A stretch of 64,000 nt of DNA. Origin: Oscillospiraceae bacterium (GTDB taxonomy: Bacteria; Bacillota; Clostridia; Oscillospirales; Oscillospiraceae). Position numbers and translations under genes: made by a program. This document shows positions 21,326 to 24,137 of this stretch, piece after piece (the first letter of the stretch is position 1; each line of letters starts with the position of its first letter). The notes below the pieces were generated by a model that did no database searches, was not told where the DNA came from, and saw only the letters and a list, made by a program, of their open reading frames with translations. The stretch is from assembly GCA_017482385.1 (NCBI GenBank), contig JAFUNI010000022.1:62001-126000 (forward strand), in the 5' to 3' direction.

Positions 21326-21399
21326 GCAGGGTTAGTTTATCGGTAGAATTTCTGCTTCCCAAGCAGACTGGGCGGGTTCGACTCCCGTACCCTGCTCCA
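21326..21399 (+). tRNA. tRNA-Gly (anticodon CCC)
   Basis: The acceptor stem GCAGGGT (21326-21332) pairs with ACCCTGC (21389-21395), followed by discriminator T and an encoded CCA. The anticodon loop TTCCCAA within CTGCTTCCCAAGCAG gives CCC. The T arm reads CGGGTTCGACTCCCG. Its 3' end is duplicated about 0.8 kb downstream. Confidence 0.96.
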
Positions 21400-21400
21400 T
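21381..21400 (+). repeat. Left copy of a 20 bp direct repeat at the tRNA-Gly 3' end (att-like)
   Basis: The last 19 bases of tRNA-Gly plus one base are repeated at 22189-22208 with a single mismatch; the first 15 bases, ACTCCCGTACCCTGC, are identical. This is the pattern left by site-specific insertion into a tRNA 3' end. Confidence 0.75.
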
Positions 21401-21442
21401 GTAAAAACCGCTTTTGTCCAGTGGACAAAAGCGGTTTTTACA
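21400..21442 (+). terminator. 43-base perfect palindrome just after tRNA-Gly
   Basis: A 21-base arm (21400-21420) is exactly complementary to 21422-21442 around a single central base. The core is CCGCTTTTGTCC / GGACAAAAGCGG flanked by AAAAA and TTTTT, so it can act as a terminator in both directions. Confidence 0.8.
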
Positions 21443-21610
21443 ATGATATCCGTTCCCTGCGCTCACGGATGATATAGCTGTAGCTATGATATCTGCTCCG
21501 CAGATGATATACGCTTCGCGTATAAAGGGAACGGATATTATATCATATTTGCATCGCAAATATATCACGCGGCGTAAGCCGTATATCATATCGCGTCAGC
21601 GATATATCAT
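21443..21610. repeat. Array of mini-hairpins separated by ATGATAT / ATATCAT linkers
   Basis: Four copies of ATGATAT (21443, 21469, 21486, 21504) separate short hairpins CCGT..ACGG, AGCT-GT-AGCT, CTGC-TCC-GCAG and ACGC-TTC-GCGT. The right half uses the reverse complement ATATCAT (21540, 21583, 21604, plus variant ATATCAC at 21562) between ATTTGC-ATC-GCAAAT, CGGC-GTAA-GCCG and ATCGC-GTCA-GCGAT. In addition ATATCCGTTCCCT (21446-21458) is fully complementary to AGGGAACGGATAT (21526-21538), enclosing three of the small hairpins. I cannot name a known repeat family for it. Confidence 0.85.
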
Positions 21611-21748
21611 TTATACGAAAAGCAAGCGTCGAACCCATTTAAACGCAACCGATTCCCGTACCCCTCACCTTGATTTTTTCTAAAAATCCAAATATAATTG
21701 AATTAGGCAAACTTGAATATAATGGAACAAATTACAGGAGGTATGCGT

Positions 21749-22159
21749 ATGTTCAAAAGAAATCCGATATTGTCATATTTAAAGAAGCAGAATATCGTTG
21801 AAAAGGTCAAAAAACATTATACCCTGTATCGTTTTACCTACCAAAACCAGCCTTTTAAGGTTTACCTAACCCCTAAAGCAAATAAAGCCACGGTAATTCA
21901 TTGTAAAGACAGCGGAGATATTATATGGGAGCAGCTTTATCCGTTTAGTGGTACGTATGGTGGTGTCGGTTCGAACCGTGAAAAACATTTTTTACTGAAG
22001 CCAACCTTCGAAAAAGGAATTATGACTATTGTTGTTATCAAGGGCAAGCCCGCTACTATAACAGGATTTGGCAACGGACTTTTTTCGTCTGTATATAGCA
22101 AAGATAGCGATAAAATTTTTGTGATGAGCGAAAAAGAGTTTGCAACATTCTTGATTTAA
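21749..22159 (+). CDS. Orphan protein of unknown function within the tRNA-Gly insert
   Basis: A 136-residue basic protein that I do not recognise. AGGAGG at 21736-21741 is 7 bases before the ATG at 21749, a clear ribosome binding site, so the frame is probably real. It has a lysine-rich N-terminus (MFKRNPILSYLKKQNIVEKVKK), then beta-rich sequence with YRFTYQNQPFKVYLTP and a glycine-rich middle. There is no signal peptide or transmembrane segment. Its codons are visibly more AT-rich than neighbouring genes, and it lies between two copies of the tRNA-Gly 3' end, both of which suggest horizontal transfer. No integrase is present in the segment. Confidence 0.65.
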   Translation: MFKRNPILSYLKKQNIVEKVKKHYTLYRFTYQNQPFKVYLTPKANKATVIHCKDSGDIIWEQLYPFSGTYGGVGSNREKHFLLKPTFEKGIMTIVVIKGKPATITGFGNGLFSSVYSKDSDKIFVMSEKEFATFLI

Positions 22160-22188
22160 TAATGGTGATTAAACGGAAAACAAATTCC

Positions 22189-22208
22189 ACTCCCGTACCC
22201 TGCTTCAT
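22189..22208 (+). repeat. Right copy of the tRNA-Gly 3'-end direct repeat (att-like)
   Basis: Matches 21381-21400 at 19 of 20 bases, the only difference being TCCAT against TTCAT at the end. A terminator follows directly, as would be expected for the original tRNA downstream sequence. Confidence 0.75.
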
Positions 22209-22210
22209 AC

Positions 22211-22247
22211 AAAAGAGCCATCCTTTTGGGTGGCTTTTTCTTTTTTC
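22211..22247 (+). terminator. Rho-independent terminator, probably the ancestral tRNA-Gly terminator
   Basis: AGCCATCC (22216-22223) pairs with GGGTGGCT (22228-22235), with one G-T pair and a TTTT loop, followed by a long T-rich tract. It sits 3 bases after the duplicated tRNA end. Confidence 0.85.
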
Positions 22248-22308
22248 TTCCCTTTTGGGGCAAAATGTGATAGAGTAACTTTAGAAACATCTTAAAGAGG
22301 TTATGGTT

Positions 22309-23118
22309 ATGAATCGTATTTTTGTATTTTTGCTGGCCGCCTTCCTGCTATGTGGCTGCGCTGCGCCTGCAAGCCCCCAACCGGACAGCACCCAGGCCAC
22401 CGTTGCGCCCACCGTTCCTACCAGCATTCAAACCGGATTGGTCAACAAGGACGGAAAGACCTATTATATCAATGCCGATGGCTCTTATGCCAAAGGCAAG
22501 GTGGTCATTGACGGTATCGATCACTTTTTTACCAAGACCGGTGAAGAAGTCCTCGTTGTGAATCCCTGGCATTTTGTCCCCTATGATTACAACCCTGATC
22601 TGGTCACATTCTACGATTTTGCCCAGTATGCGGACGGCAATGTCCTGGATAAAACCTGCATAGATCCCCTGCTGAAAATGCTGGAAGACTGTCAAAACGC
22701 CGGCTATAATGTCCGGATCGTTTCCTCCTACCGGCGGCAAGTGACCCAGGAAACCCTGTACAACAACAAGGTCGATTACTTTTTGAACCAGGGCTATGAC
22801 ATTAAAAAAGCCCGGGAAGAGGCTGGAAAGATCATCGCTGTTCCCGGCACCAGTGAGCATCAGCTGGGCCTGGCAGTGGATTTGATTGACAGCAGCTACC
22901 CTTACTTAGACGAAGGCCAGGAAAAAACGCCTGCACAAAAATGGCTGATGGAGCACTGCTGGGATTACGGTTTTATCCTCCGCTACCCAAACGGCAAAAC
23001 CGAGAGCACCGGCATTATATACGAACCCTGGCACTACCGCTATGTGGGCAAGGAGCTGGCTAAAGAGCTGCAAAATTCCGGTCTGTGCTTAGAAGAGTAT
23101 CTTGAAACATTAAAGTAA
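22309..23118 (+). CDS. D-alanyl-D-alanine carboxypeptidase family lipoprotein (VanY/M15)
   Basis: A 269-residue secreted lipoprotein. The signal peptide ends in LLCGC with the lipid-anchored Cys17. A short cell-wall-binding-like repeat (GLVNKDGKTYYINADGSYAKG) covers about residues 45-75. The C-terminal M15 peptidase domain shows SSYRRQ, TSEHQLGLAVDL (zinc ligands His and Asp) and EPWHYRYVG (catalytic Glu and zinc His). The enzyme trims the terminal D-alanine of peptidoglycan peptides. The ATG at 22309 is chosen over 22303 because AAAGAGG then lies 8 bases upstream. It is followed by a sortase B gene in the same direction. Confidence 0.9.
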   Translation: MNRIFVFLLAAFLLCGCAAPASPQPDSTQATVAPTVPTSIQTGLVNKDGKTYYINADGSYAKGKVVIDGIDHFFTKTGEEVLVVNPWHFVPYDYNPDLVTFYDFAQYADGNVLDKTCIDPLLKMLEDCQNAGYNVRIVSSYRRQVTQETLYNNKVDYFLNQGYDIKKAREEAGKIIAVPGTSEHQLGLAVDLIDSSYPYLDEGQEKTPAQKWLMEHCWDYGFILRYPNGKTESTGIIYEPWHYRYVGKELAKELQNSGLCLEEYLETLK

Positions 23119-23192
23119 ATTCCGTTATCTTTACTTTCCCGCAAAATAATGTTATAATAACGCAAATTCCCCTTCGTAAAGGATGTGACCCT

Positions 23193-24137
23193 ATGAAATT
23201 TGATTTCAAAAAATGGATTCCTAAAAAGACTGACTTCAAGGAATTTTTTTCAAAAATCATTGATTTTTTCAAGAACCTGCCTGAGAAGATCAAGTCCATA
23301 AACCGCAAAAAGCTGAAGCGGTATCTGCCGCCTTGTCTGATGCTCTTTTTCGCTGCGATTTTTTTGGTTTGCGCAGGTGTCCTGGCCAAACGGGCCTGGG
23401 AAGACTACCATCAGGCTGAGCAGAACGACTATCTCGCAAATCTTGTTCAACAGGAGCAGGCCCAGGTACAGCGGCCACCTATTTCGAACGGAGAATCCAC
23501 CTATGTGGAGCCCCTCTCCGCATTCGTAGAGATCGCACACCCCGTAACCGGCGAGCCGGTCAAGGTCCTTCGGGAATATGCGGCTGTTTATCAGCTGAAC
23601 CCGGATATGGTCGGCTGGATCCACATTCCCAATACTGCGCTCAATTATCCCGTGGTGCAAAAGCCGGGCGAGCCGGACTACTATCTGCACCGTGACTTCT
23701 ACGACAATAACAGCCGCCACGGCACAGTCTATGCCCACAACCAGGCAGATCTGCAAAAGCCCTCTGACAATGTGACCATTTTTGGTCACAATATGACCAA
23801 CGGCTCTATGTTCGCCACCCTCCACGAATATACAAAAAAAGAGTTCTACGACGCTAATCCCTACATTTACTTTGATACGCTGTATGAGCATCGCACCTAT
23901 CAGATCATCTCTGTTTTCGAAATTGACATCACCAAATCCGACTTCGATTATCACAATTATGTAGATACAAACGCCTTCTCTTTCCAGAACTTCCTGGATA
24001 ACAGCAAAAAGCTGTCTTTTTATGATACCGGCGTATCTGCCAAATACGGCGACAAGCTTCTCACCCTTTCCACCTGCGACAAGGACACCTCCAACGACGA
24101 CAAACGTTACGTGGTGGTTGCCAAGCTGGTTTCCTGA
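23193..24137 (+). CDS. srtB: Class B sortase
   Basis: A 314-residue membrane-anchored transpeptidase that attaches surface proteins to the cell wall. A basic N-terminal region is followed by a transmembrane segment at about residues 45-65. The catalytic residues are His199 (FGHNM), Cys295 (TLSTCDKD) and Arg305 (DDKRYVV). The segment GWIHIPNTALNYPVVQ is typical of the class B fold, and the long insert before the cysteine fits class B better than class A. No substrate with a sorting signal is adjacent. It follows the VanY-like gene by 74 bases and ends at a strong bidirectional terminator. Confidence 0.92.
   Translation: MKFDFKKWIPKKTDFKEFFSKIIDFFKNLPEKIKSINRKKLKRYLPPCLMLFFAAIFLVCAGVLAKRAWEDYHQAEQNDYLANLVQQEQAQVQRPPISNGESTYVEPLSAFVEIAHPVTGEPVKVLREYAAVYQLNPDMVGWIHIPNTALNYPVVQKPGEPDYYLHRDFYDNNSRHGTVYAHNQADLQKPSDNVTIFGHNMTNGSMFATLHEYTKKEFYDANPYIYFDTLYEHRTYQIISVFEIDITKSDFDYHNYVDTNAFSFQNFLDNSKKLSFYDTGVSAKYGDKLLTLSTCDKDTSNDDKRYVVVAKLVS

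Follow-up and report, generated by a model that had tools for sequence, protein, structure and literature searches.

REP, BIME and REPIN sequences are dispersed extragenic hairpins in inverted arrangement, and the tetraloop rule of RNA hairpins is GNRA. IVP proteins (PF05635) belong to the four-helix-bundle family of S23p, known from 23S rRNA intervening sequences (IVS) and kin of Avd. Gut-1 was listed in 2010 as a candidate noncoding RNA, and is described in the part of PMC2864571 that treats it as known only from environmental human-gut sequences. The part of PMC4990558 that deals with the IVS of Coxiella describes a selfish element with GACAGAT heptamers before the S23p ORF, and cites a Xanthomonas protein of the S23p family as a homopentameric toroid. 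Passages of PMC3936711 and PMC10910872 mention IVP genes that lie within or close to CRISPR loci. Finally, extraordinarily stable DNA mini-hairpins of the d(GCGAAGC) type have a loop of the form GNA or GNNA together with two or more G-C pairs, as set out in the relevant part of PMC4686876.

In the window (the whole 64-kb stretch of Oscillospiraceae DNA analysed here), the first-pass annotation had described an array of mini-hairpins with 4-6 bp stems whose ATGATAT linkers switch to ATATCAT. Our pattern parse reproduced this base for base, with seven hairpins and eight linkers. ATGATAT is found at 21443, 21469, 21486 and 21504, ATATCAT at 21540, 21583 and 21604, with ATATCAC as a variant at 21562; each half thus has four 7-base linkers, and their orientation is inverted between the halves. 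All seven local hairpins have perfect stems, and the one at 21448-21470 has an 11-nt loop. Seven of the 12 ATGATAT/ATATCAT sites of the window fall in this ~170-nt stretch; as a window-wide count, 12 is unremarkable (10 of 100 shuffles). The 13-base arms that had been proposed to fold hairpins into a branched structure are fully complementary over 13 bp, and can be extended to 16 nt at 94% complementarity. The first of these arms can pair either with the distal arm or with a nearby ACGGAT, two pairings that are mutually exclusive; the same two-way plan was seen in L489, L511 and L515. The RNA folding energy of 21430-21620 was -68.8 compared to a shuffled mean of -47.7 (z -4.86; 0 of 200 shuffles). 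The array starts flush against a perfect palindrome with 1 nt between its arms, which itself begins directly after the end of a tRNA-Gly(CCC) gene. This tRNA 3'-end position and the abutting palindrome lay beyond the view of the first-pass annotation, as did the tie to IVP, the kinship of linkers and IVP heptamers and the DNA-type loops described below.

Features at the tRNA-Gly locus of the window (positions within the window)
Feature	Position	Strand	Basis
tRNA-Gly (anticodon CCC), site adjoining the element	21326..21399	+	ARAGORN; Rfam tRNA
Perfect 21+21 bp palindrome, terminator-like left end of the element	21400..21442	.	100% complementary arms
Homology to IVP-bearing L511, 84.8% over 210 nt; its end is the right boundary of the element	21403..21611	+	
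Half 1: four ATGATAT heptamers and hairpins 21448-21470, 21474-21487, 21491-21505	21443..21510	+	pattern parse
Closing stem, 5' arm; inner part also pairs locally with ACGGAT	21446..21458	+	complementarity
Fourth hairpin of half 1, TATACGC-TTC-GCGTATA	21508..21524	+	pattern parse
Closing stem, 3' arm, wraps half 1	21526..21538	+	99% of cells paired, 10 arrays
Half 2: inverted heptamers and hairpins 21545-21563, 21570-21581, 21588-21605	21540..21610	-	pattern parse
Older right flank outside the array: inverted T-arm copy GTCGAACCC (21628-21636), decayed tRNA-Gly 3'-end copy (21650-21672)	21611..21672	+	
148-aa ORF, promoter-like sequence upstream; possible cargo, candidate only	21713..22159	+	ORF list

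That stems vary with pairing kept had been taken as a sign of selection on structure, and the alignments agree. In the array's own family (10 of 12 arrays, without the half array L316 and without L502), both partners had changed in 8 pairs, where shuffles gave 3.5 ± 1.2 (0 of 500). For further pair types the count was ordinary (21 vs 19.1 in shuffles; 79 of 500), and the fourth hairpin aligned poorly, with 70% of cells paired. In a second family, for which 29 of the 32 arrays found were aligned, both partners had changed in 17 of the 52 pairs predicted. The same closing-stem design is present in this family, and neither the distal arm nor the local partner varies among the 29 arrays; the invariance of the first arm is uninformative, because this arm served as the selection criterion for the arrays. 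Among the hairpins compared on the ATWTCA strand (see below), 226 of 270 stems contain no mismatch.

The Rfam model of Gut-1 (RF01706) matched the two halves of the window array at 36.6 and 33.8 bits, under the gathering cut-off of 50. With E <= 0.001, Gut-1 matches were found in 63 of 119 related genomes (this genome included), 55 of them above the cut-off and with up to 33 matches per genome, whereas one of 14 control genomes gave a match, below the cut-off. A second array in the same genome (L002/L005) follows the same plan with the linker GTGATAT/ATATCAC, is located after a tRNA 3' end and reaches 53.9 bits. At least 70 stretches from genome contigs and at least 8 from viral contigs passed the array filter of our pattern scans, which required three same-strand linkers; the viral ones among the matches listed were all one-sided. 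From the array parse, 48 of 107 stretches had one orientation only and were dropped. In total we parsed 101 two-sided arrays from a mix of Rfam-led and pattern-led loci, leaving out viral loci, one-sided stretches and duplicates; 43 of these lie within 130 nt after a correctly oriented tRNA or tmRNA gene. Across arrays, the half with TGAWAT mostly comes first and that with ATWTCA second. Unlike this two-half plan, one Clostridia contig (L099 2489-2951) contains a long one-sided tandem of 20 ATWTCA linkers.

The description as a modular structured element therefore stood, with many copies in related genomes. A search for spaced ATGATAT copies, along the lines of a check that had been suggested, gave five pairs in this genome, of which four are in the window array itself and the fifth is apparently unrelated. 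In relatives, scores of arrays have the same plan. The result within this genome is what a one-off low-complexity stretch under random drift would give, the case named beforehand as refuting. With the arrays of the relatives, the second array of the same genome with its GTGATAT linker and the covariation, such a stretch is excluded for practical purposes.

Near-identical copies of arrays occur at other places. Three copies in G108 share 310-331 bp at 95-99% in unrelated places, and copies in G010 and G095, which are from different families, share 219 bp at 97.7%; many genomes with copies are fragmentary assemblies, so that a binning error is possible for single cases of dispersal. In G064 the array is unchanged and two flanking proteins are 97-98% identical to those of the window, while G066 harbours the same tRNA-Gly and downstream gene with a different terminator-like hairpin and without the array. 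A palindrome with a stem of at least 11 was present at either array end in 69 of 97 arrays and at both ends in 4, compared to 0 in shuffled left flanks. Phage records contained no match to the window array, and plasmid records gave matches to the array query of tRNA length only.

Dispersed copies, hairpins and inverted repeat blocks are also expected of BIME/REPIN-like repeats mobilised by a Y1 (RAYT/IS200-type) transposase, or of a retroelement that relies on a reverse transcriptase acting in trans. Among the 119 genomes neither enzyme tracked the arrays and both were rejected as mover: Y1_Tnp was found in 20 of 63 Gut-1 genomes vs 11 of 56 others (p 0.15), and RVT_1 in 21 of 63 vs 27 of 56 (p 0.13), which is in the opposite direction. 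At the cut-offs used, this genome has no match to Y1 transposase (PF01797) or RVT_1. We consider this explanation very improbable.

We also considered an integrative element that duplicates the tRNA end as att site, and rejected it: in only a handful of the 43 tRNA-adjacent arrays, the window array among them, does the right flank clearly score as containing a copy of the RNA 3' end. Such copies are not general and so do not amount to a target-site rule. Right of the window array we observed an inverted T-arm copy (21628-21636) and two decayed direct tRNA-Gly 3'-end copies (21650-21672 and ~22188-22210), which are traces of separate integration events at tRNA-Gly. The copies at 21650 and 22188 were rejected as att of the array, as they belong to other events: a sequence similar to the 21611..21672 flank, including one like the copy at 21650, is present in G066, which is without the array. 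The arrays L282, L312, L330 and L336 are preceded by partial tRNA 3' ends (by eye). Retrocopies headed by a 5'-truncated tRNA were dismissed as an explanation, because displacement by tRNA-targeting islands explains the partial ends equally (L369 looks like one, by eye only).

Two further observations concern the array flanks. In L011, L012, L014, L297 and L314, which are from different families, the array is followed on its right by much the same tail, AGAGTTCGAATTCATACGCAAAAC..AAAATATC, whose core resembles a T-arm. In L285 and L286 (G002), the array is preceded by a palindrome made of an inverted copy of the tRNA-Gln 3' end, much as fold-back copying would leave it.

Several arrays have a PF05635-family ORF starting directly to their right, which encodes an IVP of ~110-120 aa. 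Of the 119 genomes, 56 have both Gut-1 and PF05635 matches, 7 Gut-1 only, 18 PF05635 only (all IVP types are included in these counts) and 38 neither. The co-occurrence is significant in a Fisher test that ignores kinship and completeness (p 1e-10; within the genus 3e-6; in the rest of the order 1.7e-5). We collected 75 distinct IVPs with enough upstream DNA, from 40 + 30 loci with a PF05635 hit plus array-led loci. Hairpin arrays precede 28 of the 75, a share that is inflated because 10 of the 28 came from array-led loci. All 25 array-type IVPs searched (25 of the 28) matched PF05635, and their relatives with a solved structure are 2rld and 2gsc.

The 28 array-type IVPs form one clade (SH-aLRT 96). 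When linkers were sorted into the classes TGAAA, TGAAG, TGATG, T(G/T)ATA and CTAAA plus 'none' (20 of the 28 labels by rule, 8 by eye), the tree needed 5 changes, which is the minimum and was reached in 0 of 200 shuffles. As far as these sequences go, the linker class is constant among close IVP relatives, while the stems vary under pairing constraint. Array and IVP are adjacent, so shared inheritance alone could tie the linker to the clade. A tRNA or tmRNA gene lies at most 620 nt upstream on the same strand in 20 of 28 array-type IVPs vs 1 of 46 others.

A phylum-wide profile search with an array-type IVP (E <= 1e-20) gave 19 matches in 18 of 398 genomes. At L459, in a one-contig genome from outside the class (G436), a two-half TGAAGT array precedes the IVP and a second partial array lies just upstream (by eye). 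From this locus, as judged by eye, the array and IVP system is not confined to the order. Also by eye, L458/L498 (one place) has an array before an IVP, and L460 has inverted heptamer blocks after a tRNA. On two putative faecal phage scaffolds, an array and an IVP were recognised by eye (L517 and L518), and phages may therefore be one vehicle.

Among IVP-bearing elements, the window array best matches L511, which carries both an array and an IVP gene. Their similarity (see table) stops at the last heptamer and goes no further. L515, L489 and L502 are 70-77% identical to the window array. These four loci (L489, L502, L511 and L515) form one clade with support 100, share the window's linker and its CCGTTCC closing stem, and are each followed by an IVP gene. 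In the window, 21610-23200 gave no IVP match on either strand (hmmsearch without filters, best E 5.4), and the sole PF05635 match of this genome is of the heptamer type. Because the homology to L511 extends up to the end of the array and no trace of an IVP follows, the feature is best read as the non-coding part of the element. It has the palindrome, the two-half heptamer/hairpin array homologous to IVP-bearing copies and the position at a tRNA/tmRNA 3' end, and lacks the IVP gene directly downstream. Its identity as an orphan, IVP-less copy of an IVP element of tRNA 3' ends appears well supported by these comparisons.

An IVP gene was found within 1.5 kb of only 11 of 102 arrays (82 of the 102 have at least 1 kb of right flank), which counts against the link to IVP. 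The 148-aa ORF to the right of the window array had no Pfam, NCBIfam or PHROG match. At L002 (G000 contig C34, reverse strand, element end near locus 1400), a sigma70-like promoter and a 267-aa ORF occupy the position of the IVP gene. The product of this ORF has membrane segments and is TPR-like by eye, a possible alternative cargo. As a general rule, cargo replacing the IVP was rejected as too weak: an ORF with promoter followed 10 of 61 oriented arrays (3 of the 10 being IVPs) vs 37 of 610 places chosen at random, and without the promoter condition arrays showed no excess of ORFs (21 of 61 vs 255 of 610).

Besides the array-type genes, 47 IVP genes are array-less, and 45 of these have a tandem repeat of 7-nt period just upstream (p <= 0.01 each), compared to 7 of 282 control windows from the same loci. 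The remaining two are L361 (p 0.015) and L444 (p 0.19). Among plasmid-borne IVPs of Cyanobacteria, Bacteroidota and Spirochaetota (8 of 25 records were sampled), 6 of 8 have tandem 7-mers, such as AATTCGT, TAGTGAT and AATTTGG, unlike L523 (p 0.13) and L525 (p 0.12). L525 is on an Anabaena cylindrica plasmid, where the gene for this four-helix-bundle IVP lies between cas2 and cas1. Since tandem 7-mers precede other IVP genes, we read the array linker as the heptamer of the IVP element, spaced by hairpins. Heptamer tracts have a median of 4.4 repeats and the commonest total in arrays is 8 linkers (32 of 102); a fit of these numbers to a pentamer is suggestive only.

Heptamers just before IVP genes of the other types are also what one would see if the array were an autoregulatory operator, on which an IVP or other protein controls the adjacent downstream promoter and which has no part in mobility. 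In line with this, a sigma70-like promoter was predicted in the 95 nt before the gene in 15 of 28 array-type IVPs (2.5 expected from shuffles), and with promoter-like sequence after half 2 in these copies a regulatory role is also open. On the other hand, most arrays have no IVP gene to control, and an operator needs neither seven hairpins nor a position at a tRNA end. An operator and nothing else is doubtful in our judgement, even if it is a serious competitor.

We used 40 further IVP loci, in part chosen for array-bearing genomes, as a held-out set, 39 of them with sufficient upstream DNA. With the nearest earlier IVP as guide, an array was predicted for 33 and no array for 6. By a rule tied to the five known linkers, the 33 comprised 16 arrays, 15 unclear cases and 2 tandem heptamers. 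The linker was predicted correctly in 9 of the 16, all at 65% identity or more, and none of the 7 failures exceeded about 62%. L484 (69%) and L492 (66%), which fall outside the strict rule, also carry other linkers than predicted (by eye). A linker-blind rule, which 2 of 342 shuffles pass and which recovers 23 of the 28 earlier array IVPs, sorted the 33 into 24 arrays, 2 tandem heptamers and 7 unclear cases, and recognised an array in none of the 6 loci predicted to have none. New linkers recognised by eye include ATGAATTG and GTTATGA. In L444, L481, L486, L490 and L516, IVPs follow tRNAs with two inverted heptamer blocks that lack hairpins, an apparent intermediate form. In a tree of 114 IVPs, arrays again fell on one side of a branch, with a support of only 78.

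Most short loops of the hairpins follow a strand rule, whose GNA and GNNA forms are those published for extraordinarily stable DNA mini-hairpins (PMC4686876). Read on the ATWTCA strand, 81 of 132 triloops are GNA and none is TNC, and 76 of 111 tetraloops are GNNA and none is TNNC, which together makes 157 of 243 tri- and tetraloops with none reversed. Another 23 triloops read AAA, and in 30 hairpins the loop is longer. Of 273 distinct hairpins, 244 are closed by a C-G pair. The loop sits on two G-C pairs in 136 of the 157 GNA/GNNA hairpins, but also in 89 of 116 others. In a separate set, the IVP-linked arrays of the classes TGAAG, TGATG, CTAAA and T(G/T)ATA, half 1 contains 0 GNA-type and 37 TNC-type loops and half 2 contains 25 and 1, respectively (37 hairpins with other loops were left out). 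In the window, 4 of 6 short loops obey the rule (half 1: TCC, TTC; half 2: GTAA, GTCA), TGTA and ATC fit neither reading and none is reversed.

Rfam files Gut-1 as a stand-alone structured noncoding RNA, which would mean that the array is transcribed and works folded. Gut-1 matches to both halves, the strong RNA fold and the compensatory changes speak for this, and so does the excess of G.T over A.C mismatches on the ATWTCA strand (20 vs 8), although such an excess suits RNA and single-stranded DNA alike. Against it, the third loop base is a pyrimidine in 32 of the 76 GNNA tetraloops, which break the GNRA rule, and the C-G-closed GNA triloops fit DNA mini-hairpins of the kind treated in the relevant part of PMC4686876. 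Moreover, the polarity of linkers and loops flips mid-array, so no single transcript shows all loops. A terminator-like palindrome also precedes the array, with promoter-like sequence following in the 15 of 28 IVP copies mentioned above. The loop statistics appear to favour DNA over expressed RNA, and we regard a stand-alone RNA as unlikely.

An RNA, a protein-binding array and a recombination substrate had been offered for the window array, and among these a protein-binding array that belongs to a mobile element fits best. We thus favour the reading, with a probability of roughly 0.6, that the window contains an IVP-less copy of a dispersed tRNA 3'-end element which would act as a platform for IVP rings in mobility and/or promoter control. 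Its basis is the anatomy, the homology to IVP-bearing copies, the single array-tied IVP clade, the constant linker class among close IVP relatives, the tandem heptamers before most other IVP genes, the loop rule with its strand polarity and the near-identical copies elsewhere. Speaking against it are the missing IVP gene behind the window array, the small share of arrays with an IVP nearby, the linkers mispredicted in the held-out set, the one-orientation stretches and the inability of halves 1 and 2 to present their stable loops together on one strand. A full element would consist of its own palindromic terminator, half 1 wrapped by the closing stem, the inverted half 2, a promoter and a PF05635 IVP gene. 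The homopentameric IVP ring would bind its own heptamers on a single strand, the bottom one in half 1 and the top one in half 2, and rigid DNA mini-hairpins would probably space them. The resulting IVP-DNA complex could serve mobility, control of the IVP promoter, or both, and IVP-less copies such as that of the window may be relics or have been moved in trans.

More tentatively, it is possible, if on balance improbable, that all this reflects a widespread, hitherto unrecognised class of mobile DNA elements at tRNA ends, in which a pentameric IVP ring reads clade-specific single-stranded heptamers, approximately one per subunit, with GNA/GNNA mini-hairpins as spacers and one ring per half on opposite strands. 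Gut-1, the IVP heptamers of several phyla and the 23S IVS would then be one system, with tandem heptamers as its simple and hairpin-spaced arrays as its elaborate form. If true, two orphans, Gut-1 RNA and IVP/S23p, become one testable system and a likely protein partner for Gut-1 is named. The orphan-array reading itself would give Gut-1 RNA a first biological setting. Independent of function, the 7-nt repeat before the gene is a hallmark of IVP elements, and the loop rule suggests that natural selection has used d(GNA)/d(GNNA) mini-hairpins across many genomes.

Compared to known systems, the window array is not a CRISPR array: its repeat is 7 nt long and inverts half-way, and its spacers are self-complementary hairpins. 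It differs from REP, BIME and REPIN sequences in that its stems differ, its linker is constant and there is no association with a Y1 transposase. DNA mini-hairpins are described as aptamer DNA fragments in the relevant part of PMC4686876, whereas here their loop rule appears across natural arrays with fixed strand polarity. As in the Coxiella 23S rRNA IVS, at least as far as the corresponding part of PMC4990558 describes it, complete copies have an S23p/IVP family gene, 7-nt repeats before the ORF and a site at a structured-RNA gene; unlike in the IVS, this site is the 3' end of a tRNA or tmRNA and not a 23S helix, the heptamers are spaced by hairpins in two inverted blocks, and the window copy has no IVP. 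Among the matches listed in our searches of the literature on Gut-1 and IVP, none joins Gut-1 to IVP or to tRNA sites. The array of the window is real and not unique and belongs to a known but uninterpreted family; new is its setting as an orphan copy of an IVP element at a tRNA end. It shares with Gut-1 (RF01706) hairpins separated by a constant linker (UGAAAU in the model, TGATAT in the window), and the Gut-1 model corresponds to approximately one half of what is here a two-half element with a terminator, a tRNA site and, in complete copies, an IVP gene.
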